From Levilactobacillus brevis (GTDB taxonomy: Bacteria; Bacillota; Bacilli; Lactobacillales; Lactobacillaceae): a stretch of 64,000 bases of DNA. Where the stretch lies: NCBI GenBank assembly GCA_021383565.1, contig CP079699.1, positions 248,001-312,000 on the forward strand. The letters run 5' to 3'. Under the pieces are notes generated by a model, which did no database searches, was not told where the DNA came from, and was given only the letters and a program-made list of their open reading frames with translations. Below, piece after piece: positions 26,462-60,862 of the stretch; position 1 is the first letter of the stretch, and the number at the start of each line of letters is the position of its first letter. Both the position numbers and the translations under genes were made by a program.

Positions 26462-26636
26462 GCCTTGCCGTTCGCGGAATCTAGGCTGGATCGCTGGGGA
26501 AGGACGGTCCAAGCCATAGGGCGGTCTCGGACCTTGCTTTGAGCCGGGAACCCGTCGTCTCAAAGTCACCGATTTTGTGGCAAAACTCACCACGAAATCC
26601 CCCGGCTGAGCCTAGATTCCGCTTCACTCTCGGCTA
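26462..26636 (+). repeat. Structured intergenic element, type 1, copy A
   Basis: Head GCCTTGCCGTTCGC, tail GCTTCACTCTCGGCTA. Stem P1 CGGAATCTAGGCT / AGCCTAGATTCCG is a perfect 13 bp. P2 is GGTCC-AG / CT-GGACC, P3 CTTTGAG / CTCAAAG, P4 ATTTTGTGG / CCACGAAAT. Copies at 36021 and 60685 keep the same head, tail and loops but have different paired stem sequences. No reading frame. Function unknown. Confidence 0.8.
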
Positions 26637-26825
26637 CGATGGTCAACGGTCAACAAAAATGAGCTCAAGGCCGATACCAGTTGCTTCAGCAGTTGAGTAG
26701 TGGGTCGACCCCCGAACTTTAAAAATCCCAATCATTTTCAGTGACAATGCTTGATAACGACGAGACTTGCACTGCTATTATTGTTGTAGCAACGATTAAC
26801 TATTGTTCATGGCAGGTATTCTGTG

Positions 26826-26862
26826 TAGCCGTGAGTGAGTCAAATTTGGCGAACGGCAAGGC
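26826..26862 (-). repeat. Minimal type 1 element (head joined to tail)
   Basis: On the minus strand GCCTTGCCGTTCGC is joined by CAAATTT to GACTCACTCACGGCTA. It looks like a type 1 copy that has lost the whole P2-P4 core. It faces copy A tail to tail. The bases between (26637-26825) hold nothing I can name. Confidence 0.7.
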
Positions 26863-26884
26863 GACTAGCTCTGCAGTTTACAGC

Positions 26885-26930
26885 AAAAAAGCCCGGTCGA
26901 TTGTAAATAGGCAATCGGCCGGGCCTTTCG
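26885..26930 (-). terminator. Terminator of the hydrolase gene
   Basis: On the minus strand GGCCCGGCCGATTG pairs with CAATCGACCGGGC, then TTTTTT. Confidence 0.85.
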
Positions 26931-26941
26931 TAAGACGTGAT

Positions 26942-27943
26942 TTAGTTCAGATATTGGTTAAAGAAGGTAGCCAACTTGTCAAATGGAATCAGATCACGGT
27001 TGACGCCACCGTCATACAGGTCGGTATGCACGGCGCCAGGAATCGTCATGAATTCCTTGTTGTCGGTGTACTTGGAGTTGGTCGTCATCTTCTTGTATTC
27101 ATCCTTACTAAAGTAGTAGGAGTGCGCCTTGTCCCCGTGGACCATCAGAACAGCACTGCGAATTTCGTTGGTGTACTGGTTGATTGGCTGGTTGACGAAG
27201 AACATTGTCCCCGTGACGTTCCACCCCTCATTGGAGTTGACGGAACGGGCATGGTAACCGCGATCAGTCTTGTAGTAAGCATTGTAATCGCGGATGAATT
27301 GGGGCGCATCGGCGGGGACGGGATCGACCACGCCCCCGGCCCGCTTGTAAGCCCCGCTTTGGTAATCGGCCGTCCGTTGCTGATTGAGGCTGACCTTCAG
27401 TTGATGCCGGTCTTCTTCGTTATCGTTGTCATCGAAGTAGCCGTTGGCGTTGACCCGGCTCATGTTGTACATGGTCATGGTTGCGGTGGCCTTCACCCGA
27501 GTGTCGAGCGAAGCGGCGTTTAAGGCCATACCGCCCATCCCACAGATACCAATCATCCCTAGTTTGTCGGGATCGACGTTGGGTTGTGTGGCGAGAAAAT
27601 CAATGGCGGCCTGGAAGTCTTCGGTGTTAATGTCAGGAGAGGCCATGAACCGGGCTTGACCACCACTTTCACCCGTAAATGAGGGGTCAAAGGCAATCGT
27701 CAAGAAGCCGCGTTCGGCCATCGTTTGGGCGTAGATACCGGAAGATTGTTCCTTGACGGCACCAAAGGGTCCACTGACCGCGATGGCAGGCAGTTTGCCG
27801 GTGGCGTTCTTAGGGGTGTACATGTCGGCGGCTAAGGTAATGCCGTAGCGGTTGTGGAAGGTGACCTTTTGGTGGTCAACTTGGTCACTCTTGGGAAAAG
27901 TCTTGTCCCAGTCGGTAGTAAGCGTTAATTTTTCGTTTGTCAT
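26942..27943 (-). CDS. Alpha/beta hydrolase with cysteine nucleophile
   Basis: 333 residues. The nucleophile elbow reads GICGMGG (about 132-138), with cysteine where serine is usual, as in dienelactone hydrolases. An acid in LMVHGDKAHS and a histidine in GAVHTDLYDGG near the C-terminus complete the triad. The oxyanion region is VSGPFGAVKEQ. No signal peptide. Substrate unknown. It overlaps the small gene upstream by 4 bases (ATGA), and the two are divergent from a LysR regulator. Confidence 0.85.
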   Translation of the reverse strand: MTNEKLTLTTDWDKTFPKSDQVDHQKVTFHNRYGITLAADMYTPKNATGKLPAIAVSGPFGAVKEQSSGIYAQTMAERGFLTIAFDPSFTGESGGQARFMASPDINTEDFQAAIDFLATQPNVDPDKLGMIGICGMGGMALNAASLDTRVKATATMTMYNMSRVNANGYFDDNDNEEDRHQLKVSLNQQRTADYQSGAYKRAGGVVDPVPADAPQFIRDYNAYYKTDRGYHARSVNSNEGWNVTGTMFFVNQPINQYTNEIRSAVLMVHGDKAHSYYFSKDEYKKMTTNSKYTDNKEFMTIPGAVHTDLYDGGVNRDLIPFDKLATFFNQYLN

Positions 27944-28179
27944 TTATCTGACTCCCTTTTCTTTAGTTGGCAGGCAAGAAAGTCCAAACAGTCAATTTGT
28001 GATTCGGTCTGGCGCAGTTCTTGTAGGAGATGCTGACGATGTTGCTGTAAGAGTAACTGTGAGTGGGGATGATCACCGGCGTTGAAACTGACTAAAAACT
28101 TTTGCGTCAGGCGCGCGTCACATCCTGCATCGGCAAGGTTCTGTTGAATAAGTCCTAATTTGTCATTTACATTAACCAT
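27940..28179 (-). CDS. Small helical protein resembling a MerR-regulator tail
   Basis: 79 residues. The segment LLLQQHRQHLLQELRQTESQ followed by CLDFLACQL parallels the tail of the MerR-like gene at 10580 (ILTQHRQERLAAIHQYERQI, then GIDYLRFQL). It has no DNA-binding half, so it may be a stand-alone dimerising or effector domain, or a shortened regulator. Start ATG at 28179 after GGAAGGA; translationally coupled to the hydrolase. Confidence 0.65.
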   Translation of the reverse strand: MVNVNDKLGLIQQNLADAGCDARLTQKFLVSFNAGDHPHSQLLLQQHRQHLLQELRQTESQIDCLDFLACQLKKRESDK

Positions 28180-28208
28180 GGCTTGTCCTTCCTTTGCTGT
28201 GAGTACAG

Positions 28209-28237
28209 TTTACCTGCAACCACCAATTATGTATAAT
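28209..28237 (+). promoter_or_regulatory. Promoter of the second lysR gene
   Basis: TTTACC, 17-base spacer, TATAAT. Confidence 0.65.
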
Positions 28238-28248
28238 ACTTAATGAAG

Positions 28249-28277
28249 ATAACTGGTTATTCTGATTAGTTATAACT
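28249..28277. promoter_or_regulatory. Two palindromes before lysR, probable operator
   Basis: ATAACTGGTTAT (28249-28260) and AGTTATAACT (28268-28277), just downstream of the promoter. They would suit binding by the LysR product and self-repression. Confidence 0.45.
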
Positions 28278-28301
28278 GCTGATGATTGGAGAGGTGATCA
28301 C

Positions 28302-29198
28302 ATGGAAATTCGGGTACTCCGTTACTTTGTGGAAGTCGCTAGGCAGTCCAGTATTACGCGAGCTGCCGAGGCCTTACACGTCTCTCAGCCTACGCTATCC
28401 AAGCAACTCAAGGATTTGGAAAATGAACTGGGGAAGAAGTTATTTCAACGCAGTAATTACGGGATTACGCTGACTGATGCCGGGATTCTCATGCGTAAGC
28501 GGGCGGAAGATATTCTGTCCATGGTCGATAAGACCAGCGCGGAATTTCAGACGATGACGGACCTTACCGGCGGTGACGTTTACATTGGGTGTGCCGAGTC
28601 GCAACTCATTGGGCAGTTGACCACGACCATCAAGGAGTTTCGGCACCAGTATCCCGGCCTACGATTTCATTTAATGAGTGGGGAGACCAAGACGGTGACG
28701 GAGAAATTGGACCAGGGACTAGTCGACTTCGCGATTATCGTGGAGCCGCCGGACTTGGAGCACTACACGTATCTGGAGGTTCCGGGAGAAGATACCTGGG
28801 GGCTGGTGATGCGCCGCGATGATCCGTTGGCCCAAAAACAGACGATTACGGTGGCCGATTTAGCGGATCAGGCTATCATTTGTTCGGAACAGTCAATTCA
28901 CACCGATATTCCACGGTGGGCTGGCGACCAGACGGCCGATCTGAATTGGATAGGGACAACCAATCTTTTCTTTAATGGATCGGTCTGTGTCCGCAACGGC
29001 TTGGGTGTCTTGCTGACATTCAAGGGGCTCTGCGATACCAGCGCCACGAGTGACCTGACCTTTCGTCCGCTGGCCCCACAGCTGACTACGAAGATGTACG
29101 TGATTTGGAAGAAATATCAGGTGTTTACGCCGATTGCTGAACGTTTCATCAAGCAACTTCAGACGGATTTCTCCACGGAGACGACTGTTCACAAGTAG
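28302..29198 (+). CDS. LysR-family transcriptional regulator (second)
   Basis: 298 residues: HTH ITRAAEALHVSQPTLSKQLK (about 18-37), effector domain from about 90. It is a paralogue of the LysR at 9457. Divergent from the hydrolase and small helical protein, which it likely controls. The same pairing of a LysR gene with a MerR-like gene and a metabolic enzyme occurs in the 9-13 kb block. Confidence 0.92.
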   Translation: MEIRVLRYFVEVARQSSITRAAEALHVSQPTLSKQLKDLENELGKKLFQRSNYGITLTDAGILMRKRAEDILSMVDKTSAEFQTMTDLTGGDVYIGCAESQLIGQLTTTIKEFRHQYPGLRFHLMSGETKTVTEKLDQGLVDFAIIVEPPDLEHYTYLEVPGEDTWGLVMRRDDPLAQKQTITVADLADQAIICSEQSIHTDIPRWAGDQTADLNWIGTTNLFFNGSVCVRNGLGVLLTFKGLCDTSATSDLTFRPLAPQLTTKMYVIWKKYQVFTPIAERFIKQLQTDFSTETTVHK

Positions 29199-29216
29199 GC
29201 AATAATAAAGTTGTCA

Positions 29217-29253
29217 AAAGGCACCAATCTGAAAAAATCAGGTTGGTGCCTTT
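29217..29253. terminator. Bidirectional terminator between lysR and yigZ
   Basis: AAAGGCACCAA-CTG pairs with CAG-TTGGTGCCTTT; A-run and T-run at the two sides serve the convergent genes. Confidence 0.85.
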
Positions 29254-29275
29254 CATGGTGATGAGCAACTCTAGT

Positions 29276-29938
29276 TTAGGCGTCCGTGCGGTGGCTAGCG
29301 TTGATTTCGACCGGAACCTCGTTGTAAATGACGTCGCCAGTCTTCATGGTCAGCCGGTCACTGAGAAGATTCGTGATAGCCGTGCGGATGGTGTCCACGG
29401 CTGTCAGGTCGACGGCAATCGTCACGGTGACTTGTTCGGTGTAGGTCGTGTCACGGACGATAATCTTTTCCTCAGTGAGGTAGTGCGTGAGCCGATCAAA
29501 GTTGGGGTAATCCACGGTAATAGCGATCTCTTGCTGGCGAACGCGTTTGACCACGCCCACGGCTTCGATAGCGGTGGAGGTGGCATTGCTATAGGCCCGG
29601 ATTAGGCCACCGGCCCCCAGCTTAATGCCGCCAAAATAACGGGTGACCACAGCGATAACGTTGTGGAGTTGGTTACGCTGGAGCACCGTAAGAATGGGGA
29701 CGCCGGCCGTTCCCGAGGGCTCGCCGTTATCGCTCTCTCGTTGAATCTCGTCGTGTTCCCCGAGAACGTACGCCCAGCAGTGATGGGTCGCCTTAGCTTC
29801 CCGGTCACTCACCGCGGCAAGGAAGGCCTTGGCTTCGTCTTCGGTAGTTACGCGGGCGATGTCGGTGATGAAGCGTGATTTTTTAATTTCGATGGCGTGT
29901 TGGCCGGTCGCTTGAATGGTTAAATAGTCGGTTTCCAT
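29276..29938 (-). CDS. yigZ: YigZ/IMPACT family protein
   Basis: 220 residues: UPF0029 N-terminal domain (SRFITDIARV, ESDNGEPSGTAGVPIL, VTRYFGGIKLGAGGLIRAYS) and a DUF1949 C-terminal domain. The family has an RNA/translation-related fold; the exact role in bacteria is unsettled. ATG at 29938 follows GAAAGGTG; an in-frame GTG at 29947 is less likely. Divergent from comFA, as in many Firmicutes. Confidence 0.9.
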   Translation of the reverse strand: METDYLTIQATGQHAIEIKKSRFITDIARVTTEDEAKAFLAAVSDREAKATHHCWAYVLGEHDEIQRESDNGEPSGTAGVPILTVLQRNQLHNVIAVVTRYFGGIKLGAGGLIRAYSNATSTAIEAVGVVKRVRQQEIAITVDYPNFDRLTHYLTEEKIIVRDTTYTEQVTVTIAVDLTAVDTIRTAITNLLSDRLTMKTGDVIYNEVPVEINASHRTDA

Positions 29939-30014
29939 AAAAAACACCTTTCTCGAAAATTTTCAGCCACTTTTTACGGAGTTAGTCTCAGTACCACGAG
30001 AGGGGCAAAACGTG

Positions 30015-31337
30015 ATGAATGAGTTGTCAGAATTCTTTGGTCGGCGCTTGCCGGCTCAACCAGGAAACGCCCAGTTGGGCCCCGGTGAGCTGGCTATCCA
30101 ACGGGAGAGTCAGCGTTACCGGTGCCAGCGTTGTCGTCAGTGGATTGCCACCACGGATCGGCTACCCAACGGCGATTGGTACTGCCGGCACTGTTTACAA
30201 ATGGGCCGGTTGACCTCACAGACTAAATTATACACTATTCCGGAGCCTAACCGGTTCGTAATCCCGACGACACCGGTGCTGACCTGGACCGGGACGCTCA
30301 GTGACGACCAGCAACGCGCGGCCCAGGCGGTTTGCAGGTTGGTCCAGCAACAACAGAATCAGTTGCTATGGGCGGTCACCGGTGCCGGTAAGACCGAGAT
30401 TGTTTATCCGGCGTTGGCGTGGGCCTTGGCACAGGGCTGGCGAGTGGCCTGGGTCTCGCCGCGGGTTGACGTCTGCTTGGAGTTGGCACCGCGGATTCGC
30501 CAGGCCTTTCAGACGACCAGTCAATGTCTCTTGTATGGCGAGCAGTCGGTGCCCTATACGTATAGTCAGTTGACGGTCTGTACGACCCACCAATTGTTAC
30601 GGTTCGAGCGGGCTTTCGATTGGATTATCGTGGACGAAGTGGATGCCTTTCCCTTAGCGACCAGTCCGTTGCTGCAGACGGCCATCACGCGTGCCGAGAA
30701 AGTTTCCGGTCGCCACCTTTATTTAACAGCGACACCCGGTGAATCCTTACAGCGTCAGATTAGACGGCACGAGGTTGCGACAACGTACTTACCGTTGCGC
30801 TATCACGGTTTCTTACTGCCACGGCTACAAGTGAGATTGGCATGGCGGTGGCGGACTCTTCTGGAGAAGTCCCGGTTGCCGGCGGCGTTGGTACGACAAT
30901 TACTGGCCTATCAGCAGGTGGGGCAACGTTTTCTGCTGTTCGTTCCGCACGTGCGTGATCTAGACGCCGTGATGGCCGCATTGATACATGCCAAAATTAA
31001 AGGCGGGGTCAGCGTACACGCAACCGATGAGCAGCGTACGGACAAGGTGCAAGCGCTGCGCGAACGTCGGGTGGCCTTTCTCGTGACCACTACGATTTTA
31101 GAGCGTGGCGTGACCTTTCCTAACATTGCCGTGGTCATCTTAGGCGGAGACGATGCCATCTTTTCCACGGCAGCCCTGGTACAGATTGCCGGTCGGGCAG
31201 GGCGGCACGCGGACTTTCCCCGTGGTGAAGTCACCTGCTACGTCCAGAGTCAGACACGGGTGGTGCGTCGCGCCCAGCGTATGATTGATCAACTGAATCG
31301 GCAGGGGAAGCGCCGGGGCGGGCGGTGGCCAGCATGA
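30015..31337 (+). CDS. comFA: DNA uptake helicase/translocase ComFA
   Basis: Membrane-associated DEAD-like ATPase that helps pull single-stranded DNA into the cell in natural transformation. 440 residues: N-terminal four-cysteine zinc finger (CQRC...CRHC), Walker A AVTGAGKTE, Walker B DEVDAF, and TATPG, ERGVTFP and AGRAGR helicase motifs. Followed by comFC with a 4-base overlap. Nothing looks broken, so the competence locus may be functional. The start is taken at ATG 30015; GTG at 30012 adjoins. Confidence 0.93.
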   Translation: MNELSEFFGRRLPAQPGNAQLGPGELAIQRESQRYRCQRCRQWIATTDRLPNGDWYCRHCLQMGRLTSQTKLYTIPEPNRFVIPTTPVLTWTGTLSDDQQRAAQAVCRLVQQQQNQLLWAVTGAGKTEIVYPALAWALAQGWRVAWVSPRVDVCLELAPRIRQAFQTTSQCLLYGEQSVPYTYSQLTVCTTHQLLRFERAFDWIIVDEVDAFPLATSPLLQTAITRAEKVSGRHLYLTATPGESLQRQIRRHEVATTYLPLRYHGFLLPRLQVRLAWRWRTLLEKSRLPAALVRQLLAYQQVGQRFLLFVPHVRDLDAVMAALIHAKIKGGVSVHATDEQRTDKVQALRERRVAFLVTTTILERGVTFPNIAVVILGGDDAIFSTAALVQIAGRAGRHADFPRGEVTCYVQSQTRVVRRAQRMIDQLNRQGKRRGGRWPA

Positions 31338-32011
31338 CCCGCTGTGTCTGGTGTCAACAGCGCTTCCAACCCAGCGTCGCGCTACGGGATCTTTTGAGCT
31401 GGCGACCGTTGCCAGTACCGCCACTTTGCCCACGTTGTCAGGACCGATTCGTCCCCATTACGGCCCAGCATTGTCCGGACTGCGGCCGCCAACAGGAGCA
31501 GGCCGTTCGCTGCCACGACTGTGAACGCTGGGGGATGGAAAGCCTACAGAATCGAGCACTCTTTCGCTATGATGTGGGGATGAAGGCCTACATGCAACAG
31601 TATAAATTTCAGGGGGATTACGCGTTGCGTAAGGCCCTTCAGGCGCCACTCCAGCGGGCACTGGCTCAGCAGGATTATGATATTTTAGTCCCCATTCCTA
31701 TCGATCAACAGACGTGGCTGACGCGAGGCTTCAATCAGGTCACGGGGTGGCTGCGGGGCCAACCTTATCACCAAGCACTGGTGGTGAAGGCCACGCACAA
31801 GGCTCAGCCGCAATCGGCCAAGACCCGGGCCCAACGGTTGCTCACACCACAGCCATTTCAACTGGATCCACGAGTGGCGCCAATCCTAGTTAATCAACGG
31901 GTTTTGCTATTAGATGACGTCTACACCACGGGGCGGACTTTGCGGCACGCCGCCGCGCAAATTTATTTGGGTGGCGCGAAAGCGGTTACTAGCCTGACTT
32001 TAGCGCGTTGA
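31334..32011 (+). CDS. comFC: ComF family protein (phosphoribosyltransferase fold)
   Basis: 225 residues: cysteine-rich N-terminus (CVWC, CPRC, CPDCG, CHDC) binding zinc, and a PRTase domain with VLLLDDVYTTGRTL. Needed for transformation; it interacts with ComFA and DprA in Firmicutes. Start ATG 31334 overlaps the comFA stop (ATGA), so it is translationally coupled; a GTG at 31325 is also open. Confidence 0.92.
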   Translation: MTRCVWCQQRFQPSVALRDLLSWRPLPVPPLCPRCQDRFVPITAQHCPDCGRQQEQAVRCHDCERWGMESLQNRALFRYDVGMKAYMQQYKFQGDYALRKALQAPLQRALAQQDYDILVPIPIDQQTWLTRGFNQVTGWLRGQPYHQALVVKATHKAQPQSAKTRAQRLLTPQPFQLDPRVAPILVNQRVLLLDDVYTTGRTLRHAAAQIYLGGAKAVTSLTLAR

Positions 32012-32036
32012 GGCCGATTAAATTTCGTGAGAATAA

Positions 32037-32065
32037 TTGTTTCTGGTAGGGCTTTCTATTATAAT
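32037..32065 (+). promoter_or_regulatory. hpf promoter
   Basis: TTGTTT, 17-base spacer, TATAAT, about 85 bases before the start. Confidence 0.8.
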
Positions 32066-32149
32066 AATAGTAAGCAAAGCATATTAGAAGAGTGGTCCTT
32101 CTAATGCTGAGCAAACCGAGTTTATCTTGGTTGAAGGGAGAGAAGTTTT

Positions 32150-32704
32150 ATGCTCACATTTAATATTCGTGGTGAAAACATCGAAGTTACTGACGCAATA
32201 CGGGATTACGTTGAAAAGCGTATCAGCAAGTTGGAGAAATATTTCGACAACAAAGTTGAGGCAATTGCGCATGTCAACCTGAAGGTCTACCAAAACAAGA
32301 CGGCGAAGGTTGAAGTAACAATCCCACTCCCATACTTGACATTACGGGCAGAGGAAACTTCTCCGGACTTATATGCAAGTGTTGATTTGGTTACCGATAA
32401 GCTGGAACGGCAAATTCGCAAGTTCAAGACCAAAGTTAACCGTAAGTCCCGGGAGAAGGGCTACAAGAATCTCGACTTCGCACCGGAAGCTACGGAACCA
32501 GATCCAGCTGAAAGTAAGGAGTTAGAGGTTGTTCGGACCAAGCGCGTTTCGCTGAAGCCAATGGATAATGAAGAGGCTGTTCTGCAAATGGACATGTTAG
32601 GCCACGACTTCTTTATCTACGAAGATGCTGAAACGAACGGCATTAGCATTGTGTACCGTCGTAACGACGGCCGCTATGGTTTGATCGAAGCCGACGACCA
32701 ATAA
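32150..32704 (+). CDS. hpf: Ribosome hibernation promoting factor, long form
   Basis: Makes inactive 100S ribosome dimers in stationary phase or stress. 184 residues: N-terminal S30AE/RaiA domain (MLTFNIRGENIEVTDAIRDY to about 100), a charged linker, and the C-terminal dimerising domain (KRVSLKPMDNEEAVLQMDML to the end). The two-domain layout is the Firmicutes long form. Own promoter and terminator; typically just upstream of secA, as here. Confidence 0.95.
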   Translation: MLTFNIRGENIEVTDAIRDYVEKRISKLEKYFDNKVEAIAHVNLKVYQNKTAKVEVTIPLPYLTLRAEETSPDLYASVDLVTDKLERQIRKFKTKVNRKSREKGYKNLDFAPEATEPDPAESKELEVVRTKRVSLKPMDNEEAVLQMDMLGHDFFIYEDAETNGISIVYRRNDGRYGLIEADDQ

Positions 32705-32727
32705 ACCAATAATGTTAACAACTAACG

Positions 32728-32755
32728 AAGCACTGCCTAGCGCGGTGCTTTTTTA
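32728..32755 (+). terminator. Terminator after hpf
   Basis: AAGCAC-GC / GC-GTGCTT with TTTTTT. Confidence 0.85.
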
Positions 32756-33266
32756 GTGCTCAGTTAAAGCGGTGAAGTCTTTCGATGAGCGGAGAGGACG
32801 GCGAGAGTAGCAGGGAGAGTTGGTGGCGTAACGGGTAGCCGCTGTAACCGGAAGCCAGTGTTTGTTTGCTCACCCTACCAAGCTGTACAGCGTCAGCGCC
32901 TCGTCTTTGCAGGGATGCCACGCGGTTCATAGAATAGAAGGTAACCCGGTCATTTAGGTGTCGAACTGGCCGATTGGTATTTCGGTTTTTGCCGGTGTGG
33001 CGCAATAGTTGAGGGGGCTCATCCATTCGGCTGATTGTCATGGGATTGTTAAGCAACTGTTAAGCAAAAAGACAATACTTTCACCGATGAATCTGGTAAA
33101 ATTAATAAGATTACTCCTGGACTTCCGGGCAGTTCCCACAGTATCAGTGGTGGGTTGGCGGGAGGTTCGACTTGATATAGGTGAAACAATAACTGACGGT
33201 GGGGGAATTTTAACTAAGGATAATGCGAAAGAAAGCGGTTTTACGGCATTTACATGATTAGAAAAG
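32756..33266. other. Unexplained intergenic stretch between hpf and the secA promoter
   Basis: About 510 bases without a gene I can support. The first half is GC-rich; the second has an open frame of about 80 codons (33009-33257) with no ribosome site and no family I recognise. It shares no block with the dispersed structured elements. Confidence 0.4.
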
Positions 33267-33295
33267 TTTCATCTTAGCCGGGTTAGTGTTAAAAT
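33267..33295 (+). promoter_or_regulatory. Probable secA promoter
   Basis: TTTCAT, 17-base spacer, TAAAAT (33290-33295) with TG extension. It leaves a leader of about 280 bases before secA. Confidence 0.5.
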
Positions 33296-33384
33296 GTAGA
33301 TTGATTTATTGTCAAAATAAATGATTTAAATCCTATCCCTCGCGCGATGCAGATACCTTGATTGATGCGAGGAATATTCTTGTA

Positions 33385-33543
33385 ATGGGGTTTGTGATTT
33401 TATCAATTACTCAAATGTCCGCGCCGCAACCTGCGGACAGTAACGATCCGGGTTATTGGGATGGTGATCCACCCCGGATAAATTGCGAACACGGCGTTTG
33501 GTGTCGTGGTTGCGAGCTTCTAATGCAAGTTAGAAGTGGTTGA
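33385..33543 (+). CDS. Possible secA leader peptide, 52 residues
   Basis: An ATG at 33385, 11 bases after GAGGA, opens a frame ending 37 bases before secA. It begins with a short hydrophobic stretch (GFVILSI), followed by a Pro/Asp/Gly/Trp/Cys-rich tail that includes GYWDGDPPR and VWCRGCELL. The frame is overlaid by three hairpins. By analogy with SecM-type secretion monitors it could tie secA translation to export, but this is only inference; it may be non-coding structured RNA. Confidence 0.3.
33416..33536 (+). promoter_or_regulatory. Three hairpins in the secA leader
   Basis: TGTCCGC / GCGGACA (33416-33439), CCGGG / CCCGG (33448-33477, with inner GGAT / ATCC), and CTTCTAA / TTAGAAG (33517-33536). 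The last ends 30 bases before the secA ribosome site. Confidence 0.6.
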
Positions 33544-33580
33544 CGACGACTTATTAAAATGTACTGAAGGGAATTCTCAC

Positions 33581-35944: not shown

Positions 35945-36020
35945 TGCGGGAGATGACGAGGCGGGAAGCAATTCCGGCCTCGTTTTGTCTAAACGTGACT
36001 TGTTTGTCCGCTTGCCTGCC

Positions 36021-36196
36021 GCCTTGCCGTTCGCAAAATATGCGCTGGAACGCGGTGGGGAGGACGGTCAAAGCCTGAGGAGCGGTCTTTGACCTCGCTT
36101 GGAACCGCCAAGATCGCGTTTCCAAGTCGCCATTTTCTAAGCAACCCGCTTAGAAAATCCCACGGCTGAGCGCATATTTTGCTTCACTCTCGGCTA
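36021..36196 (+). repeat. Structured intergenic element, type 1, copy B
   Basis: Same head (GCCTTGCCGTTCGC) and tail (GCTTCACTCTCGGCTA) as copy A. P1 CAAAATATGCGCT / AGCGCATATTTTG, P2 GGTCAAAG / CTTTGACC, P3 CTTGGAA / TTCCAAG, P4 ATTTTCTAAG / CTTAGAAAAT, all perfect. The P1 sequence is almost wholly unlike copy A, yet pairing is intact. Lies just after secA. Confidence 0.85.
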
Positions 36197-36276
36197 GAGT
36201 GCTGTGTGGGCATCAGAGCTTCGATCAGATGGCTGGTTTGCTCCAACGCGAAGACGACAATAACGCGACTATCATT

Positions 36277-36462
36277 GCCGGAGGAGGTCAGTAATGGAGC
36301 CAGCCGTGACGACGGTGTTAGCTGGCGTTTCTTCAGCCAGGTTACACCGTGGGGCGACTTGGGAGACTTGCGTGTTTTGCAAGGCTTCTAAGCGAGGTGG
36401 AAGCCCGCTCTTTGGCTGGAACCGTTCCCCACAGCAGGCGGAATTGCTGACAGCCGCAGGCA
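36277..36462 (-). repeat. Structured intergenic element, type 2, copy C
   Basis: Minus strand: head GCCTGCGGCTGTCAGCAATT, tail ending CCTCCTCCGGC. P1 GTCAG-AAT / ATT-CTGAC; P4 CGGTGT / ACACCG with inner CTGGC / GCCAG. P2 and P3 are degraded. It faces copy B tail to tail, with about 80 bases between. The stretch 36463-36548 is the prfB leader. Confidence 0.75.
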
Positions 36463-36548
36463 CGGATGTGGACTTGTTGAATTAAGAAGTGTAGCTATCT
36501 TTTGGAAAACCCAAAATCAAAATCTAATTAAAAAAGGAGCCAACCACG

Positions 36549-45858: not shown

Positions 45859-46536
45859 ATGCGTAGATTGTTTGATGACGAGTTGGCGGAACTGGACGCA
45901 GACTTTACGGAAATGGGCATGTTGGTCAGCGAGGTTGTGCAGCAGGCGGTGGATGCCTTTATGGATCGCGATGCCGTGGCAGCCCAGAAGCTGATCGACC
46001 ACGACCACGAGATCAACCAACGTGAAATCTCTCTGGAGCAGAAAACCTTTGAGATGATCGCCTTGTATCAACCCGTAACGACGGACCTGCGTGAAATTGT
46101 GACGATCTTAAAGGCCGTTTCCGAGTTGGAGCGAGCCGCGGATCATGCCCGTAACGTGGCGCATTCCGCCATTAAGTTCGGCAGCAAGCAGAAGATTGCG
46201 GTACTTGAGCAGTTGATTGGTGAGATGGGGCAGATTACCACGCGAATGATTCGCGAAGTGTTGGCGGCCTACGTGAACAAGGACGACCATGCCGCCCGTG
46301 AATTGGCGGAGGTTGACCGCAAGCTTGATCAACTGAATCATCAGATTCGTGCCGACAGTTATCAGCAGATGCGACTGGACCCGGCGTTTGAGACCGGGGC
46401 GTCAATCTACCTAAACGTTGCGCAAGACCTCAGCCGAATTGGGGATTACGTGACTAACGTGTGCGAATGGATTGTTTACCTGAAGTCCGGACAGATTGTG
46501 GAATTGAACCCGGCCAATTCGGATAGTCCCAACTAA
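45859..46536 (+). CDS. phoU: Phosphate-specific transport system regulator PhoU
   Basis: Links the Pst transporter to PhoR, keeping the kinase inactive when phosphate is plentiful. 225 residues forming two three-helix bundles, each with the metal-binding E/D pattern (ELERAADHARN and DLSRIGDYVTN). Last gene of the Pst operon. Confidence 0.94.
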   Translation: MRRLFDDELAELDADFTEMGMLVSEVVQQAVDAFMDRDAVAAQKLIDHDHEINQREISLEQKTFEMIALYQPVTTDLREIVTILKAVSELERAADHARNVAHSAIKFGSKQKIAVLEQLIGEMGQITTRMIREVLAAYVNKDDHAARELAEVDRKLDQLNHQIRADSYQQMRLDPAFETGASIYLNVAQDLSRIGDYVTNVCEWIVYLKSGQIVELNPANSDSPN

Positions 46537-46613
46537 AATTCCCGCGTTAGGGGCGACACGTGTTTCGTTGAAAAGCTTAACCTATCTTGAAGATTTACCG
46601 GAACGGTCACTGG

Positions 46614-52268: not shown

Positions 52269-52363
52269 GGTGTCACCGAGCGGGAACGACCTCACGGGGT
52301 GTTTCCGCTTTTTGTCAAATCACGGGCCAGTGTCCGGCTGGCTCGTACATAACCGTCGTTTGT

Positions 52364-52558
52364 TCGCCTTACCGTTCGCCAAAATAGTTTGATCTGCAAT
52401 TTGGATAAGGCTGGGTGCCTGCGGCCGACAGAAATTCCGCCTGCTGTGGGGGCCGCTGGTAGCTCCAAAATTGGCTTTCGGATCGCTTGGAATCCTGACT
52501 GACAACAACCGTCAGTCGCTGGTGCGGGCAGGAGGCAGTGCATAACGGCAAGGCGGCC
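52364..52558 (+). repeat. Chimeric structured element, copy E
   Basis: It starts with a type 1 head (GCCTTACCGTTCGC) and P1-like CAAAATAGTTTG, then a type 2 head (GCCTGCGGCCGACAG, CTGCTGTGGGG) at 52417, then a hairpin CTGACTG / CAGTCG region. It ends with an inverted type 1 head (GCATAACGGCAAGGC) at 52540-52558. The type 2 core is degraded. This fills most of the 340-base gap between trxB and yfbR. Confidence 0.6.
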
Positions 52559-52607
52559 AGCTGATGTTCTGGCACCCATTTAAATTAAAATAGAGGAGTG
52601 GTTCTAC

Positions 52608-53826: not shown

Positions 53827-53855
53827 ATGGGAAGCAGATTGTTTCCCATTTTTTC
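53827..53855 (+). terminator. Terminator carrying the IS5 insertion site
   Basis: ATGGGAA pairs with TTTCCCAT, then TTTTTT. The IS element's TA target lies at the end of the T-run. Confidence 0.8.
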
Positions 53856-53872
53856 TAGGGTCCGTCTGAAAA

Positions 53873-54304
53873 CTACTTAAGTAAGATGCAAATTGAGGCA
53901 ATGTAGACCGTAGCCAGATAAACATGAGCGAGCTTATCATAACGCGTTGCAATCCTACGAAAGTTCTTCAACTGATTAAAGAAGTTCTCAATCAAATGGC
54001 GCTCACAATAAACGTGGTAATCACAGGTCCACTTGTCTTTGGTATTTTCCTTTGGCGGAATGGTATAGACGCCTGCTTTATCTTCAATATACTGGCGAAG
54101 TTTCGCGGTGCCATAGGCTTTGTCCGCGATAATATTTGATTGAGAAATATCGAAGCCTTCCAGCAACTCACTGGCAACTTGGCTATCATGTACTTGACCA
54201 CCTGTTAGGCGAAAACCCAAGGGATTCCCTAATCCGTCAACGAGTGCGTGAATCTTGGTCGTTCGGCCACCTCGACTTAGTCCAATAGCTTGATTTTCGA
54301 CCAT
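53873..54304 (-). CDS. IS5 transposase, second frame (catalytic part)
   Basis: 143 residues with SRGGRTTKIHALVDGLGNPL, the second D in IIADKAYG, and the E in NFFNQLKNFRRIATRYDK (YREK-like). Made as a -1 fusion with the first frame in this IS group. The reading frame is intact. Confidence 0.88.
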   Translation of the reverse strand: MVENQAIGLSRGGRTTKIHALVDGLGNPLGFRLTGGQVHDSQVASELLEGFDISQSNIIADKAYGTAKLRQYIEDKAGVYTIPPKENTKDKWTCDYHVYCERHLIENFFNQLKNFRRIATRYDKLAHVYLATVYIASICILLK

Positions 54305-54648
54305 ACATTCGGCGTTTTTTTTGCCCCAGTGGCCTTTTGATGCGCTCGAACGATCGTTGAATCTAAGCTCAAGTTTTCCATGTCGGGATCGTCAATCAAT
54401 TCGAGAAAAACCTGTTCGAACAAGCCTGAACTTACCCAGGCTCGGAAGCGACTATACACCGTTTTCCAAGAGCCATAGCGTTCAGGTAGATCACGCCAAG
54501 GAGCCCCGCTGCGCATGAGCCAGAGGATAGCGTTGAGGGCGGTACGGTTGTCTAGGCTTGATGGACGGCCAGTCCGGTATGGCGGGAAGTATCCTTTGAT
54601 TCGGTCCCACTGAGCATCTTCCAGTTCGTATCGTTTAGGTGTTGTCAT
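54277..54648 (-). CDS. IS5 transposase, first frame
   Basis: 123 residues with DUF4096-type N-terminus (ALNAILWLMRSGAPWRDLPE) and the first catalytic D in LSLDSTIVRAH. After the slippery A8 it would shift -1 and continue as KKNAECMVENQAIGLSRGG into the second frame. Confidence 0.88.
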   Translation of the reverse strand: MTTPKRYELEDAQWDRIKGYFPPYRTGRPSSLDNRTALNAILWLMRSGAPWRDLPERYGSWKTVYSRFRAWVSSGLFEQVFLELIDDPDMENLSLDSTIVRAHQKATGAKKTPNVWSKIKLLD

Positions 54649-54826
54649 CGGAATGCCTCGATTCGTTTTTCCTCAGATTGTACCTGAATTTTAAGTTTTC
54701 AGACAGTCCCTAGTGAACGAAGAAGTTTTAAATGCAAGTCGGACCAGCGTTGACGCGACGTATCGCGGACGACTGAAAATGGTCGTCAGGCTGGTTTAAA
54801 AAAGAATTTGGTAGGGAGGTTATGCC

Positions 54827-56833
54827 ATGATCGATCGACAGTCGGATCGGAAGTTTGATTTGGTTTCGAATTATCAACCCACGGGGGATCAACCGGAAGC
54901 CATTGCACAATTGACCAAGGGACTCAATGAACACGAGAAGGCGCAGATTCTGTTGGGGGCGACTGGGACCGGGAAGACTTTTACGATTTCTAACGTGATT
55001 AAAAACGTGAATAAGCCAACATTGGTCCTGTCTCATAACAAGACGTTGGCGGGGCAACTTTACGGTGAGTTTAAGGAGTTTTTCCCGAACAATGCGGTAG
55101 AATATTTTGTCAGTTACTATGATTATTATCAACCCGAAGCGTACGTGCCGTCGAGTGACACGTACATTGAAAAGGATTCCTCAATTAACGATGAGATTGA
55201 TAAGCTACGGCACTCGGCGACGAGTTCGTTGCTGGAACGAAACGATGTGATCGTCGTGGCCTCCGTGTCCTCAATCTTTGGGTTAGGGGACCCTACCGAA
55301 TATAAGAACCACGTGGTGTCGCTACGGGTCGGTCAGGAGATCGAACGGGATGCGTTGCTTCGTAAATTAGTCAATATTCAATTTGAACGCAACGACTACG
55401 ACTTTCAGCGGGGCCGCTTCCGGGTACACGGGGATGTCGTGGAAATTTTCCCCGCGTCACGGGATGACCGGGCACTGCGGGTCGAGTTCTTTGGCGACGA
55501 GATCGACCGTATCCGGGAAGTGGATTCACTGACCGGTGAAATTGTCGGCGATCGTGAGCACGTCGCAATCTTCCCCGCTACCCACTTTATGACTAACGAT
55601 GACATCATGGCCAAGGCCACGGCGGGCATCGAAGGCGAGATGAAGGACCGGGTTGCCGAGCTGGAAGGCCAGAGTAAGCTGCTGGAGGCTCAACGGCTCA
55701 AGCAACGGACGACCTATGACTTGGAAATGATGCGTGAAATGGGCTACACGAGTGGGATCGAAAACTACTCGCGGTGGATGGACGGTCGTAAGGCCGGTGA
55801 ACCACCATACACGCTGTTGGACTTCTTCCCGAAGGATTTCCTGTTGGTTGTCGATGAATCTCACGTGACGATGCCGCAAGTTCGCGGGATGTATAACGGG
55901 GACCAAGCGCGGAAGCAGCAGCTGGTGGATTATGGTTTCCGGCTGCCTAGTGCGCTGGACAACCGCCCCCTGAAGCTCTCCGAATTCGAACAACACGTCA
56001 ACCAAGTGATTTACATGTCGGCGACGCCCGGACCCTACGAACAAGAACAAACCAAGCACGTGGTCCAACAGATTATTCGGCCAACCGGGTTACTTGATCC
56101 TACGATTGAAGTTCGGCCAATCATGGGCCAGATGGATGATCTGGTCGGTGAGATTAACCAACGGGTTGAGGCCAACGAGCGGACATTTGTGACCACGCTG
56201 ACCAAAAAGATGGCGGAAGATTTGACCGACTATCTGAAGGATCTCGGGATCAAGGTGGCCTATCTGCATTCGGATATCAAGACGCTGGAACGGACGCAAA
56301 TCATGCGGGACCTCCGTTTGGGCAAGTACGATGTCTTAGTCGGCATTAACCTATTGCGGGAAGGAATCGATATTCCGGAAGTCTCACTGGTAGCGATTTT
56401 GGATGCTGACAAGGAAGGCTTCCTGCGTAACGAACGGTCCTTGATTCAGACGATTGGTCGGGCTGCCCGGAACTCGCACGGGTCCGTGGTGATGTATGCT
56501 GATTCCGTGACGGAGTCCATGCAGGCGGCGATTGATGAGACGGCCCGCCGGCGGAAGGTTCAGATGGCCTATAACAAGGAACATGGCATCACGCCAAAGA
56601 CGATTATTAAGCCGATCCGCGACCTGATTGCCGTGACCAAGAAGAACGATCACGAGGGCGAAAAGGACGATTTCGTTTCGAATGATTTCGAAGATATGTC
56701 CAAGGACGATCAGCGGAAGTTAATCTCGCGGTTGGAAGATGAGATGCGGGCAGCCGCTAAGAAGCTGGACTTCGAGCAGGCGGCTTCACTGCGGGATACT
56801 GTCATGGATATGAAGACCGAAATCGGTGATTAG
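54827..56833 (+). CDS. uvrB: Excinuclease ABC subunit B
   Basis: DNA helicase-like damage-verifying subunit of nucleotide excision repair. 668 residues: Walker A GATGTGKT (44-51), the DNA-clamping hairpin around [20 protein letters not shown], helicase motifs (IGRAARN), and a C-terminal UVR domain ([20 protein letters not shown]) that binds UvrA/UvrC. GGGAGG ribosome site. The IS5 element ends only 114 bases upstream, and I see no clear SOS box there. Confidence 0.96.
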
Positions 56834-56853
56834 GTCAGTGAGGAGAAGATGAA

Positions 56854-59715
56854 TTGTTAAACGATAAAATCGTGATTCACGGCGCAAGAGCGCATAACTT
56901 AAAGGATATCGACGTCACTATTCCCAAGAATAAGTTGGTTGTCATCAGTGGCCTCTCCGGTTCCGGGAAGAGTTCGTTAGCGTTTGATACCCTCTATGCG
57001 GAAGGCCAACGCCGTTACGTAGAAAGTCTATCGTCCTACGCCCGGCAGTTTTTGGGGCAAATGGACAAGCCGGACGTGGACTCGATTGACGGGTTAAGCC
57101 CGGCCATTTCGATCGACCAGAAGACGACCTCCAAGAACCCCCGGTCAACGGTCGGTACGGTGACCGAGATTAACGACTATCTTCGACTGCTGTGGGCCAG
57201 AGTGGGCACGCCGATCTGTCCTAACGATGGTACGAAGATTACCAGTCAGAGTGTGGAACAGATGGTCGATCAGGTGCTTGACCTGCCGGAGCGGACGAAG
57301 TTACAGGTGTTGTCACCGATCGTTCGGGCTAAGAAGGGCCAACACAAGAAGGTCTTTGACAAGATCCGGCGCGAAGGTTTCGTCCGCGTGCGGGTAGACG
57401 GGGACATCATGGATATTGACGATGTGCCGGAATTAAATAAGAATCAAAACCACGACATCGCGATTGTGATTGATCGGATTGTGGTCAAGAGTGGGATTCG
57501 GTCCCGGTTGTTCGATTCCTTTGAGGCGGCCCTGCGGTTGAGTGGGGGTTATGCGATTGCCGACTTAATCGACGGCGAACCCATGATCTTCTCGGAACAT
57601 TACGCGTGCCCCGTCTGTGGGTTTACCGTGGGCGAACTGGAACCCCGGCTCTTCTCCTTCAACGCGCCATTTGGGGCTTGCCCGGACTGTGATGGTCTCG
57701 GTGTGAAGTTGGAAGTCGACTTAGATCTGGTCGTTCCCGATAAGACCAAGACGCTGCGTGAGGGGGCCTTGGCGCCCTGGAACCCGATCAGTTCGCAATA
57801 CTACCCAGCCCTCTTGGAACAGGCTGCGGCAGCCTTTAACGTGGATATGGACGTGCCCTTTAAGGACTTGCCTAAGGCGGACCGCGACCTCGTGCTCTAC
57901 GGGTCGCAGGGCAAGGAATTTCATTTCCACTATGAAAATGACTTTGGTGGTGTCCGTGACGTGGACGTTGCCTTTGAAGGGGTTGTCCCCAACGTTAATC
58001 GTCGTTACAAGGAGACCAACAGTGACTTCACCCGTGACGTGATGCGTAAGTACATGGCCGAATTGACCTGCCAGACGTGTCACGGCTACCGGTTGAACCG
58101 GCAGGCCTTGAGTGTTCAGGTGAACCATCAACACATCGGAGCGGTCTCTGATCTGCCCGTCGACAAGGAATTGGCTTTTTTCAAGGACCTGAAATTCGGC
58201 GAACAGAACCAAGTCATTGCCCAGCCGATTTTAAAGGAAATCCGTGACCGGTTGACGTTCTTACGGAACGTGGGTCTGGATTATCTGACGCTGAGTCGTT
58301 CGGCTCGGACGTTGTCCGGTGGGGAAGCGCAACGGATTCGGTTGGCCACGCAGATTGGCTCGAACCTGTCCGGGGTCCTATACATCTTGGATGAACCTTC
58401 AATTGGGTTGCACCAACGGGATAACGACCGGTTAATCGCGTCACTGAAGCAGATGCGGGATCTAGGGAATACGTTAATCGTGGTCGAACACGATGAGGAT
58501 ACCATGCGTGCCGCGGATTACATCGTGGATATTGGTCCCGGGGCCGGTGAGAACGGGGGCCACGTGATGGCTGCTGGCACGCCTAAGCAGGTGATGCGTT
58601 CCCGGAAATCCTTGACTGGCCAATACCTATCCGGCAAACGTTACATTCCGGTACCTTTGAAGCGGCGACCGGGGAATGGCAAGTCCATTCGCGTGACCGG
58701 TGCGGCCGAGAATAATTTGAAGGATATCACGGTAGATTTTCCATTAGGGGAATTCGTCGTGGTAACCGGGGTTTCCGGCTCTGGCAAGTCGACGCTGGTG
58801 AACACCATTTTGAAGCGAGCCTTGGCGCAGAAGCTGAATCGGAACTCGGAAAAACCCGGGAAATACAAGAGCATTGCCGGCGTCAAGAACATCGAACGTT
58901 TAGTCGACATCGATCAGAGTCCAATCGGACGGACGCCTCGGAGCAACCCGGCAACCTATACTGGCGTGTTTGACGACGTTCGGACACTGTTTGCCCAGAC
59001 GAACGACGCTAAGATGCGGGGTTACCAGAAGGGCCGCTTTAGCTTCAACACCAAGGGAGGTCGTTGTGAGGCCTGCCACGGTGACGGGATTTTGAAGATT
59101 GAGATGAACTTTCTGCCCGACGTCTACGTTCCTTGTGAGGTCTGCCACGGCACGCGGTACAACTCCGAGACGCTGGAAGTCGAATACAAAGGAAAGAATA
59201 TTGCCGACGTCTTGGACATGACGGTCAGCGAAGCCCTGAAGTTCTTTGAAGCCATTCCTAAGATTACGCGGAAGCTTCAGACCATTCAGGACGTGGGACT
59301 GGGCTACGTGAAGTTGGGGCAGCCCGCCACGACCCTGTCCGGTGGGGAAGCCCAGCGGATGAAGTTGGCCTCCGAGTTGCACAAGCAACAGAACGGGAAA
59401 AACTTCTACATCTTGGATGAACCCACAACTGGCCTCCACACCGATGATATCAAGCGCCTGTTGACGGTACTTCACCGGCTGGTTGATAAGGGCAACACGG
59501 TGTTGGTTATCGAACACAATTTAGATGTCATTAAGACGGCCGATCATTTGATTGACCTAGGTCCTGAAGGCGGGGAGGCCGGCGGAAACGTCGTCGCTAC
59601 CGGTACGCCGGAAGAATTGGCCGAGGTCAAGAATAGCTATACTGGCCAGTACCTGAAGCCCGTCTTGGAACGGGATAAGGCACGCACGGAAGCAGACGCT
59701 GAATCGGCGTCATAA
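56854..59715 (+). CDS. uvrA: Excinuclease ABC subunit A
   Basis: Damage-recognising ABC ATPase dimer of nucleotide excision repair. 953 residues: two ABC modules (GLSGSGKSS and GVSGSGKST Walker A), two zinc sites (CPVCGF...CPDC and CEACHGDG...CEVC), and two LSGGEAQR signatures. TTG start at 56854 after AGGAG. 20 bp after uvrB, the usual operon. Confidence 0.96.
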
Positions 59716-59726
59716 AAATGTAAACT

Positions 59727-59770
59727 GGGACGAGGAAGCTTGCTAATTAGCGGTTTCCCCGTCCCTTTTT
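59727..59770 (+). terminator. Terminator of uvrBA
   Basis: GGGACG-GGAA pairs with TTCC-CGTCCC, then TTTTTG. Confidence 0.85.
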
Positions 59771-59861
59771 GTTAGGTGAACTTGTTTACCTCAGTAAAAA
59801 CCAGTACAATGGTTGAAAACCGGTCGCCACTTGACCGGAGTTGTGAGGAGATATGCAGACG

Positions 59862-60404
59862 ATGTTTAATATGAATCGAACACGGTGGGGCTTTGACTGG
59901 AGTGAATTTATTCTCGGTATCTTATTCTTAGTTGCCGCGTACGGTCTATTCCGCTCACCCAAGATTGGCTTAACTGGTTTAGCGATTATTTTTGCCATTA
60001 TGGCGCTATTAAGTGGATTTACCACGATTGCGGGTTACCGCAAGTTGCATGAAGCAACGGGCCTGCGAGCTAACTTTGCGTTGGTTTTAGGGATTTTAGA
60101 TATTCTGATTGCTGTGGTCTTCTTCTTCGACATGAACAGTGCCATCGTAACGTTAGGGTATCTGTTTGCCATCTGGTTTATCGTTGATTCCCTGGAACGT
60201 TTACTGGTTGCTAGCCACTTGCGGAGCTTCGGTGGTTTTTACTTCTGGCTCTCGATTGTCTTTGACGTGCTGGCGCTGGTTGTGGGGATCATGTTGTTCG
60301 TGCACCCCGTGGTCGCGGCCCTGTCATTGAACGGCTTGATTGCCATCTTCTTCACCATCTTCGGGGTCAACGCCATCTGGATTTCCATCGCTCGTAGTCG
60401 GTAA
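59862..60404 (+). CDS. DUF308 (HdeD-like) membrane protein
   Basis: 180 residues, six predicted helices in three pairs, typical of the HdeD/DUF308 family; role unknown. GAGGAG at 59845-59850 suits the ATG at 59862; ATG 59853 lies too close. Monocistronic. A structured element starts 12 bases after its stop. Confidence 0.82.
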   Translation: MFNMNRTRWGFDWSEFILGILFLVAAYGLFRSPKIGLTGLAIIFAIMALLSGFTTIAGYRKLHEATGLRANFALVLGILDILIAVVFFFDMNSAIVTLGYLFAIWFIVDSLERLLVASHLRSFGGFYFWLSIVFDVLALVVGIMLFVHPVVAALSLNGLIAIFFTIFGVNAIWISIARSR

Positions 60405-60415
60405 TGGTTATTATT

Positions 60416-60594
60416 GCCTGCGGCTGCCAGCAATTCCGCCTGCTGTGGGGACCGGTAAAAGCCTGGCGAAGCGGTCTTTTACCTCGACTTGGAGCCGAAG
60501 ACCACGTCTCCAAGTGCGTCCAGTGAAGTAACCTGGCCAAAAACGCCAGCTAACTTCACACCCACGGCTGGCTCCATTACTGGCCTCCTCCGGC
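60416..60594 (+). repeat. Structured intergenic element, type 2, copy F
   Basis: Best type 2 copy. Head GCCTGCGGCTGCCAGCAATT, tail GGCTCCATTACTGGCCTCC. P1 GCCAG-AAT / ATT-CTGGC, P2 GGTAAAAG / CTTTTACC, P3 CTTGGAG / CTCCAAG, P4 GTGAAGT / ACTTCAC with inner CTGGC / GCCAG. Against copy C, P1 and P4 both covary. Another small head hairpin is CAGCA / TGCTG. Confidence 0.85.
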
Positions 60595-60684
60595 GTGTTC
60601 AGTCCGCATCATGCGTTTATGGTATCCGGTATCAATCACGTTGGCGAGGGCTATTCAGCCACCTTTGATTGACACTCACCACCG

Positions 60685-60862
60685 TAGCCGTGAGTGAAGC
60701 GCAGGATGAGCTCAGCCGTGGGATTTTCCGAGTGTCTTTCTCGGAAAATGGCGACTTGGAAACGCTGATTTGGGGCGGTTCCAAGCGAGTTTCGAGACCG
60801 CTCTTTGGCTCGGAACGCCCTCCCCACCGCGTTCCAGCTCATCCTGTGCGAACGGTAAGGCG
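60685..60862 (-). repeat. Structured intergenic element, type 1, copy G
   Basis: Minus strand: head GCCTTACCGTTCGC, tail GCTTCACTCACGGCTA. P1 CAGGATGAGCT / AGCTCATCCTG, P3 CTTGGAA / TTCCAAG, P4 ATTTTCCGAG / CTCGGAAAAT. It faces copy F tail to tail. Just beyond its head lies a lone inverted type 2 head (60883-60902). Confidence 0.85.

Follow-up and report, generated by a model that had tools for sequence, protein, structure and literature searches.

A dispersed repeat of Levilactobacillus brevis and other Lactobacillaceae with twin folded domains, covarying stems and the marks of a non-autonomous mobile element

The window analysed here is a stretch of 64,000 nucleotides from Levilactobacillus brevis (GenBank assembly GCA_021383565.1, contig CP079699.1, positions 248,001 to 312,000 of the forward strand). 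An initial annotation, made from the letters alone, had described in it a dispersed intergenic element with three full copies of a "type 1" repeat. Re-reading of the sequence bore out the positions, heads, tails and stems given for these copies. They are listed below with their accompanying parts and with bit scores from R1, a covariance model built from an alignment (A1) of 30 copies, all taken from the source genome of the window, in which the pairing was drawn by hand. P1, P1', P2, P3 and P4 denote helices; domains and classes are described further below.

26459..26636, + strand: domain 1, class C, with head, P1, P1', P2, P3, P4 and tail (R1 176.6 bits)
26826..26865, - strand: remnant of its tail-to-tail partner, 40 nt, head and tail kept, interior gone (R1 32.1 bits; pattern matches)
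36018..36196, + strand: domain 1, class A (R1 196.4 bits, the top match of the genome)
36275..36466, - strand: domain 2 ("type 2"), tail-to-tail partner of 36018..36196 across a spacer of 78 nt (R1 29.0 bits; aligned with other domain 2 copies)
about 52363..52560, no strand given: fourth copy, internally deleted (R1 13.4 bits only; pattern matches)
60413..60433, + strand: left outer inverted repeat, head-2 type (sequence read)
60423..60586, + strand: domain 2 (R1 48.8 bits)
60685..60864, - strand: domain 1, class A, partner of 60423..60586 across a spacer of 98 nt (R1 191.8 bits)
60880..60900, - strand: right outer inverted repeat, head-2 type (sequence read)

The three full copies share the head GCCTT[AG]CCGTTCGC and the tail GCTTCACTC[TA]CGGCTA. 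With up to three mismatches, the tail has four sites in the window against 0.40 expected. Over the whole source genome it has 32 sites at up to two mismatches and none in the reversed control, and the head has 181 sites against 38. Chance is excluded as the source of the repeat copies. P1 had been described as exactly paired in all three copies, which holds over the stretch quoted, with an A.C further out in the third copy; P4, also described as paired, is exact in the second and third copies and contains one T.G pair in the first. Overlooked in the initial annotation was an opposite-strand partner, present or former, beyond the tail of each full copy, namely the domains at 36275-36466 (-) and 60423-60586 (+) and the 40-nt remnant at 26826-26865 (-). 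The internally deleted copy has head-1 inverted repeats at 52366-52379 (+) and 52541-52554 (-, three mismatches), with a piece of domain 2 (52416-52455) between them.

The repeat unit of 178 nt folds into a long helix closing on a four-way junction; its loops are conserved and its stems covary strongly. The long helix consists of P1 (14 pairs, arms about 145 nt apart), an asymmetric internal loop and P1' (8 pairs), and the junction carries the hairpins P2, P3 and P4. Conserved mismatches are found in two helices, C.T inside P3 and G.G or T.G inside P1'. Standard pairs make up 89.4% of the pair cells of A1. Two-sided change was found at 24 pairs and in 177 cells, compared with 18.1 and 60.0 in shuffles (none of 500 as high), and sliding one arm gave at most 41 two-sided cells; the number of pair types was not above the shuffles (406 of 500 as high). 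The statement that the stems vary in sequence yet stay paired was thus confirmed. Folding of the copy at 36018-36196 gave z = -6.7 as single-stranded DNA and, as RNA, z = -5.2 for the + strand and -6.3 for the - strand. The family had not been recognised initially, and no Rfam family matches the repeat copies searched: there was no match at the gathering score in the window, none at E ≤ 5 for one copy, and nothing on the repeats at seven further loci, where the sole match was a thiamine pyrophosphate (TPP) riboswitch outside them. In the following, C1 is the contig of the source genome, G-numbers are relatives and L-numbers are analysed stretches. A TPP riboswitch lies near repeat copies at L164:8652-8757 (-).

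At least 125 R1 matches at E ≤ 0.001 were found in the source genome, where the best 150 of 974 candidates were scored, and at least 150 in each of the sister genomes G012 and G026. A first survey of relatives (58 genomes, at most 46 candidates scored in each) gave matches in 33 of the 35 genomes of the genus, the source genome included, the two without a match being G021 and G031, and in none of 23 genomes from other families of the order. A restriction to the genus, drawn at first from those 23 genomes, was ruled out by a survey of 201 Lactobacillaceae genomes from 40 genera, which used stricter filters and at most 13 scored candidates per genome: R1 matches are present in 50 genomes and nine genera, and 42 of the 50 belong to the eight genera besides that of the window. 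Twenty stretches from six of these eight genera hold 28 R1 matches, in which 93.3% of cells pair and 372 cells show two-sided change compared with 103 when shuffled, in an alignment that was fitted to R1 and leans toward structure. Among the head-pattern matches listed with names, 79 of 80 are from Levilactobacillus or Lactobacillus sp. HBUAS51381, and the remaining one, in a Solirubrobacterales metagenome-assembled genome, was taken as chance. Carriage by plasmids or phages was considered and set aside, as one full element searched against plasmid and phage records gave no match. The family was not found described in published work on repeats, miniature inverted-repeat transposable elements (MITEs) and structured RNAs of lactobacilli, a literature of which most subscription journals fell outside the coverage. 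Lac-1, a family from a stem-loop survey of 2008, lies, according to the accessible part of that source, within Lactobacillus johnsonii coding sequences (PMC2267715). The repeat represents a sizeable and apparently undescribed share of intergenic DNA in food bacteria.

The "type 1" and "type 2" repeats are not unrelated, because R1 finds type 2 on the opposite strand. An alignment of 36 domain 2 sequences displays a helix order similar to that of domain 1 with a P1 of its own, and conserved blocks are common to both on opposite DNA strands. Judged from these sequences, the two domains are homologous, on opposite strands. Neighbouring matches less than 400 nt apart, counted with weaker R1 matches included in the stretches of three genomes, are oriented tail to tail in 76 cases, in tandem in 24 (all in G012 and G026) and head to head in none. 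All 17 close pairs of the source genome are ordered + then -, and the six other genera have seven tail-to-tail pairs, one tandem and no head-to-head pair. The element consists of two homologous domains of about 180 nt placed tail to tail around a spacer, with short outer inverted repeats outside them, and measures about 0.3 to 0.6 kb. The spacer is 20-243 nt long in the source genome; in the sister genomes the 3' flank with the spacer diverges by 21%, compared with 2-5% inside conserved elements. The partner domain of about 224 bp at L104:1752-1975 (G026) is nearly all gone in G012 (L384), with the outer end left, an instance of decay by deletion inside the pair.

Class B contains 45 copies, picked by their P1 arm, and in these a terminal inverted repeat (TIR), CT[AG]AAGGTTGAAAG ... 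CTTTCAACCTT[TC]AG, encloses both domains; CT[AG]AAGGTTGAAAG has 74 sites against two in the reversed control. In classes A and C the outermost inverted repeats are head-1 or head-2, and 19 head-1 pairs were listed, some of them nested or doubtful. Two class B TIRs stand 252 bp apart at C1:2003482-2003733 with no R1 match nearby, perhaps a MITE without domains. Of 16 class B copies with both ends recognisable, seven are flanked by an 8-bp duplication (at least seven of eight positions alike), whereas 5000 shuffles of the right flanks averaged 0.63 such copies and never exceeded 5. Class B insertions at C1:1117624, 1865273 and 1371400 sit shortly behind the T-runs of probable terminators.

Sites occupied in the source genome are empty or differently filled in relatives. 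At the 36018 locus (compared partly by eye), G011, G023, G001 and G008 are without the element, the gap in G001 and G008 holds a member of another hairpin family, G017 carries a separate, oppositely oriented copy, and R1-like copies of their own are present in several more distant species. The element at 60685 is absent from G023, G008, G001 and G011; the copy in G017 is a different one and degraded, with an R1 score of only about 13 bits. The class B copy at C1:1371400, compared by eye, is absent in G012, has an apparent remnant in G017 and is replaced by a different element in the gap in G023 and G011. At window positions 46536-46572, an insertion common to G008 and G001 is absent in G000, G017, G023 and G011, and its left half differs between the carriers. 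Of 108 element clusters in the source genome, 103 were covered, and 35 of these lie in convergent gaps, 43 in co-directional and 10 in divergent gaps, while 15 overlap a mechanically called open reading frame of at least 110 residues; all neighbouring frames of the covered stretches give 78 convergent and 77 divergent gaps. This placement, with 35 convergent against 10 divergent gaps, is as expected of tolerated insertions. The repeat is very probably a non-autonomous, MITE-like mobile element, in view of the class B TIRs with their 8-bp duplications and the empty or differently filled sites. A mobile element had been among the roles first proposed, beside a structured RNA and a nucleoid or topoisomerase site, and the terminal repeats, the target duplications of one class, the empty sites and the copy number agree with it.

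The repeat is itself a landing site for an insertion sequence (IS). The class B copy at C1:812023-814160 holds an IS3-type IS of 1691 bp (for example C1:812152-813842); the first of its two frames has HTH_Tnp_1 and HTH_28, and the second has an rve core. Six copies, 99.9-100% identical and three in each orientation, were found (L120, L142, L147, L153, L164 and L375); they were counted in stretches of the source genome all but one of which had been chosen for R1 matches, and copies elsewhere are possible. All six occupy one site of domain 1, between P1' and P2 (GTGGG.AGGA ^ AGGACGG), and AGGA is repeated or nearly so at the IS in the three + cases. No near match to the 1691-bp IS was obtained in plasmid records; plasmids carry relatives of about 69% identity with an IS3-family annotation, and the two examined lie outside R1 elements. 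As an autonomous partner of the repeat, the IS in C1:812023-814160 was ruled out by its own ends, its insertion within domain 1 and the five further copies in other domains. The copies at L147:2646-2766 and L153:2225-2345 are identical over about 115 nt from the IS to the end of P1' (P2 to P1'), and their P1 arms differ, each exactly paired, as do their flanks. As read from these sequences, this one clear case shows an exchange of the domain interior between two copies in which P1 was kept.

How the stems change was followed in G012 and G026, with 40 stretches from each (48 and 45 had been planned) holding 115 and 113 R1 matches. Filtering on element and flank identity left 60 paired loci, 37 conserved (element at least 92% identical) and 23 changed. 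They replace an unfiltered set of 72 assigned pairs, whose 290 two-sided cells were dropped since some assignments were duplicates or paralogs. The conserved loci display 61 one-sided changes (31 A.C, 11 wobble, 19 other) and 11 two-sided ones (seven Watson-Crick in both genomes). At the changed loci the 5' flank keeps 90% identity and 17-19% of the element differs; 109 cells show two-sided Watson-Crick change and 101 show change on one side. In the clearest case, L384 against L104, the differences cover both arms of P1 as well as P1' and a single P4 pair, all of them still paired, and P2 and P3 are identical. P1 arms are mostly private in the sister genomes (65 of 67 and 66 of 70 distinct), and in the source genome 34 of 78 copies, the class B burst, have one P1 arm in common; together these observations indicate that a stem is passed on when its element is copied and that its two arms later diverge together.

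The usual proof of a functional RNA is that both arms of its stems change in pairs, and selection on the fold at the RNA level would be expected to make G.U outnumber A.C. Counted on the head-to-tail strand, only in pair columns at least 80% Watson-Crick, G.T and A.C number 42 and 64 in the source genome (top 78 copies), 15 and 37 in G012 (top 67) and 24 and 24 in G026 (top 70). In the other genera they number 37 and 21, or 14 and 21 without the two inner P1' pairs, which are mostly G.U. These counts speak against RNA selection without being decisive; the excess of A.C is confined to two genomes, with G026 at parity, and was not used as a pointer to the other strand. From the homology of the domains on opposite strands it follows that a transcript of either strand carries a sense domain together with an antisense one. 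A fold acting at the DNA level is, we judge, somewhat more probable than one acting in RNA. The lack of a G.T excess, and the one-sided decay or block change of both arms at the sister loci, make a fold in DNA with concerted change more likely than ordinary selection on RNA, though they do not prove it.

In the explanation that we prefer, and to which we give roughly even chances, the repeat is an old family of non-autonomous, MITE-like elements of the Lactobacillaceae with folded twin ends and stems that change in blocks. A transposase acting in trans would recognise both ends, which would fold as single-stranded or cruciform DNA while the conserved loops are contacted; the inverted, head-out domains would suit a transposase that synapses two ends. 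The arms would stay complementary by block change of the stems, through recombination with other copies (shown once) or possibly template switching between arms. Only foldable copies would spread, and a copy once fixed would then drift. A doubtful extension is a new class of mobile element with two ends recognised by DNA shape, as twin four-way-junction domains with conserved loops and with stems rewritten on both arms together. Older copies would on this extension carry private but perfect stems, the paired changes would be a by-product of element copying and recombination, and the family would be a natural case in which covariation does not mean RNA function.

Several observations weigh against the preferred explanation. 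Inspection of end pairs did not show a target duplication in classes A and C, and no autonomous relative with matching ends was found in the analysed stretches. Fifteen pairs of facing class B TIRs lie less than 3 kb apart, 14 of them spaced 238-585 bp and one 2124 bp, the last being the class B copy with the inserted IS3-type IS (two further pairs, 6.1 and 7.7 kb apart, were left out of this reading). That IS, which landed inside the element, is the sole gene seen between the 15 pairs. No transposase frame was evident in 24 longer + to - intervals, judged by eye from the opening 60 residues of the best frame; the idea of cargo genes was likewise discarded, as only ordinary genes were seen by eye between facing domains. 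The frequent G.U of the two inner P1' pairs in other genera fits folding of the head-to-tail strand, and the conserved asymmetric internal loop is RNA-like. At the 37 conserved loci stems diverge by 2.4%, loops by 4.9% and the 5' flank by 8.1%, as selection for pairing would also give, although the division by element identity biases the stem and loop values of that group downward. The two-arm changes could also be rapid compensatory evolution.

A rival explanation is a structured non-coding RNA, or an RNA part of a selfish element, that is selected for its fold and merely spread by mobility. We consider it unlikely. The matches in nine genera, the covariation in six other genera (with the alignment fitted to R1), the conserved loops and the folding of a copy far below its shuffles are in its favour, as are the stronger conservation of stems than of loops, seen in class B (0.046 for stems, 0.111 for loops) and in the conserved orthologs, and a TATAAT-like sequence ahead of class B heads. 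A promoter scan of one class B copy, however, gave one site against 0.6 by chance and was not counted as evidence, any transcript would pair one sense domain with an antisense partner, and in Levilactobacillus there is no G.T excess. Copies also lie mostly at the 3' ends of genes and differ between species at each locus compared. Of the structured RNA first suggested, the fold and the covariation are borne out; the domains on opposite strands, the missing G.T excess in Levilactobacillus and the mainly one-sided changes without wobble bias in conserved orthologs tell against a plain structured RNA. The alternative first stated, selection on structure or a hairpin-copying mechanism, keeps its premise of very strong covariation, the source of which seems at least in part to be copying or recombination of DNA.

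Gene conversion between dispersed copies, swapping hairpins or whole interiors so that the paired changes are merely imported, is possible though on balance not probable. The identical interior of about 115 nt in L153 and L147, beside the IS and between different P1 arms and flanks, argues for it, as do the contiguous blocks in which the changes fall; that single clear exchange, however, adjoins a 1.7-kb IS offering homology. A search for donor helices, made on the unfiltered 72 locus assignments and covering part of all copies, found the helix in another copy in 13 of 21 P2 events and 7 of 7 P3 events, but these helices are short and common to many copies anyway. Among P1 and P4 events only 1 of 14 and 4 of 13, respectively, had such a copy, and no paralog of a changed part exceeds 0.91 identity. 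Copying from arm to arm as the main source of the paired changes has a similarly limited chance. The L147/L153 exchange raised the share given to recombination from a small to a modest one, lowered that of arm-to-arm copying from a larger share to the same modest level, and slightly lowered both the neutral explanation that follows and recognition of the ends by shape. Hairpin copying is compatible with the block changes of both arms at orthologous loci, and in at least one case it was recombination that exchanged whole hairpins.

A neutral by-product, in which old inverted repeats are kept perfect by quasi-palindrome correction (template switching in replication) and the fold has no function, is improbable. 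Concerted arm changes at single loci (L384/L104), the private P1 stems and A.C mismatches as common as G.T fit it, and template switching can yield multi-base paired stem changes, according to the accessible part of one study (PMC8794818). Correction alone would not, however, maintain the loops or the conserved mismatches in P3 and P1', and for folds to be recognisable in several genera, selection must have acted at some point; the P1 arms are also some 145 nt apart, and one-sided changes persist in the conserved orthologs (61 of 72 changed cells). Very improbable is a system like that of REPINs (doublets of repetitive extragenic palindromic, or REP, sequences) and their RAYT transposases, with inverted doublets moved by a resident Y1 (IS200-like) transposase. 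The doublets with a variable spacer resemble it, Y1 genes occur in 23 of 35 genomes of the genus, and an IS3-type IS targets the repeat as IS1397 targets REP units (PMC1525189, in its accessible part). Yet among these genomes, which are drafts, 12 have no Y1 match, including G012 with at least 150 copies, and the R1-negative G021 and G031 both have Y1 genes. The unit of about 180 nt is no short REP, and class B has terminal repeats with an 8-bp duplication.

Among known systems, REPINs likewise consist of inverted structured units around a variable spacer. Stem sequences are poorly conserved and folding is conserved in integron attC sites, which are DNA sites; the present repeat shares the conserved folding and differs in having inverted domains in pairs and conserved loops that are long. 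Parvovirus-type hairpin ends, which are inverted T- or cross-shaped terminal palindromes with arms copied from each other, offer an analogy only, as no replication gene, linear replicon or inverted interior was noticed here. The nearest kind, as far as the accessible part of the source describes them, are BOX, RUP and SPRITE of pneumococci, short, non-coding, highly folded dispersed repeats thought to be parasitic and moved in trans (PMC3049150). The repeat described here is likewise short, folded and non-coding, with TIRs and target duplications in class B. Unlike them, it has two homologous inverted four-way-junction domains per element, mostly private paired stems in older copies and matches in nine genera, and no IS with a matching TIR was found. 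REP sequences and bacterial interspersed mosaic elements (BIMEs) share with it the inverted structured units around a variable spacer and, in IS1397, an IS that inserts specifically into the unit (PMC1525189, again in part); its units of about 180 nt have several helices instead of one short palindrome, and the distribution of Y1 genes does not fit REPINs. Template-switch mutation has been described, in the accessible part of the source, as producing multi-base compensatory changes of RNA stems in one step in rRNA and microRNA genes (PMC8794818), whereas here the stems belong to dispersed copies, more than 100 per genome. Multi-base two-arm changes are seen between the sister genomes, where they may have arisen in one step or through recombination. 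More than 100 copies in each of three genomes, nine genera and overwhelming covariation, yet signs of a mobile origin at the DNA level, make the family a natural setting in which to ask whether the effects of RNA selection can be imitated by hairpin copying or recombination, as the orthologs of the sister genomes can be compared copy by copy.

A second dispersed hairpin family of similar style, with the blocks GAGCATTAAC, TTAAGCGGAA and CACGTTTCGGCNA and stems that vary and look paired by eye, was also observed. It occupies the gap after what we take to be a secA-like gene (gene names near copies are our own recognition) in G033, G001, G008, G019 and G032 (L183, L186, L187, L192 and L198). In the source genome it is present at C1:1513880-1513904 (-) and in three near matches, one pattern having four sites against none in the control.

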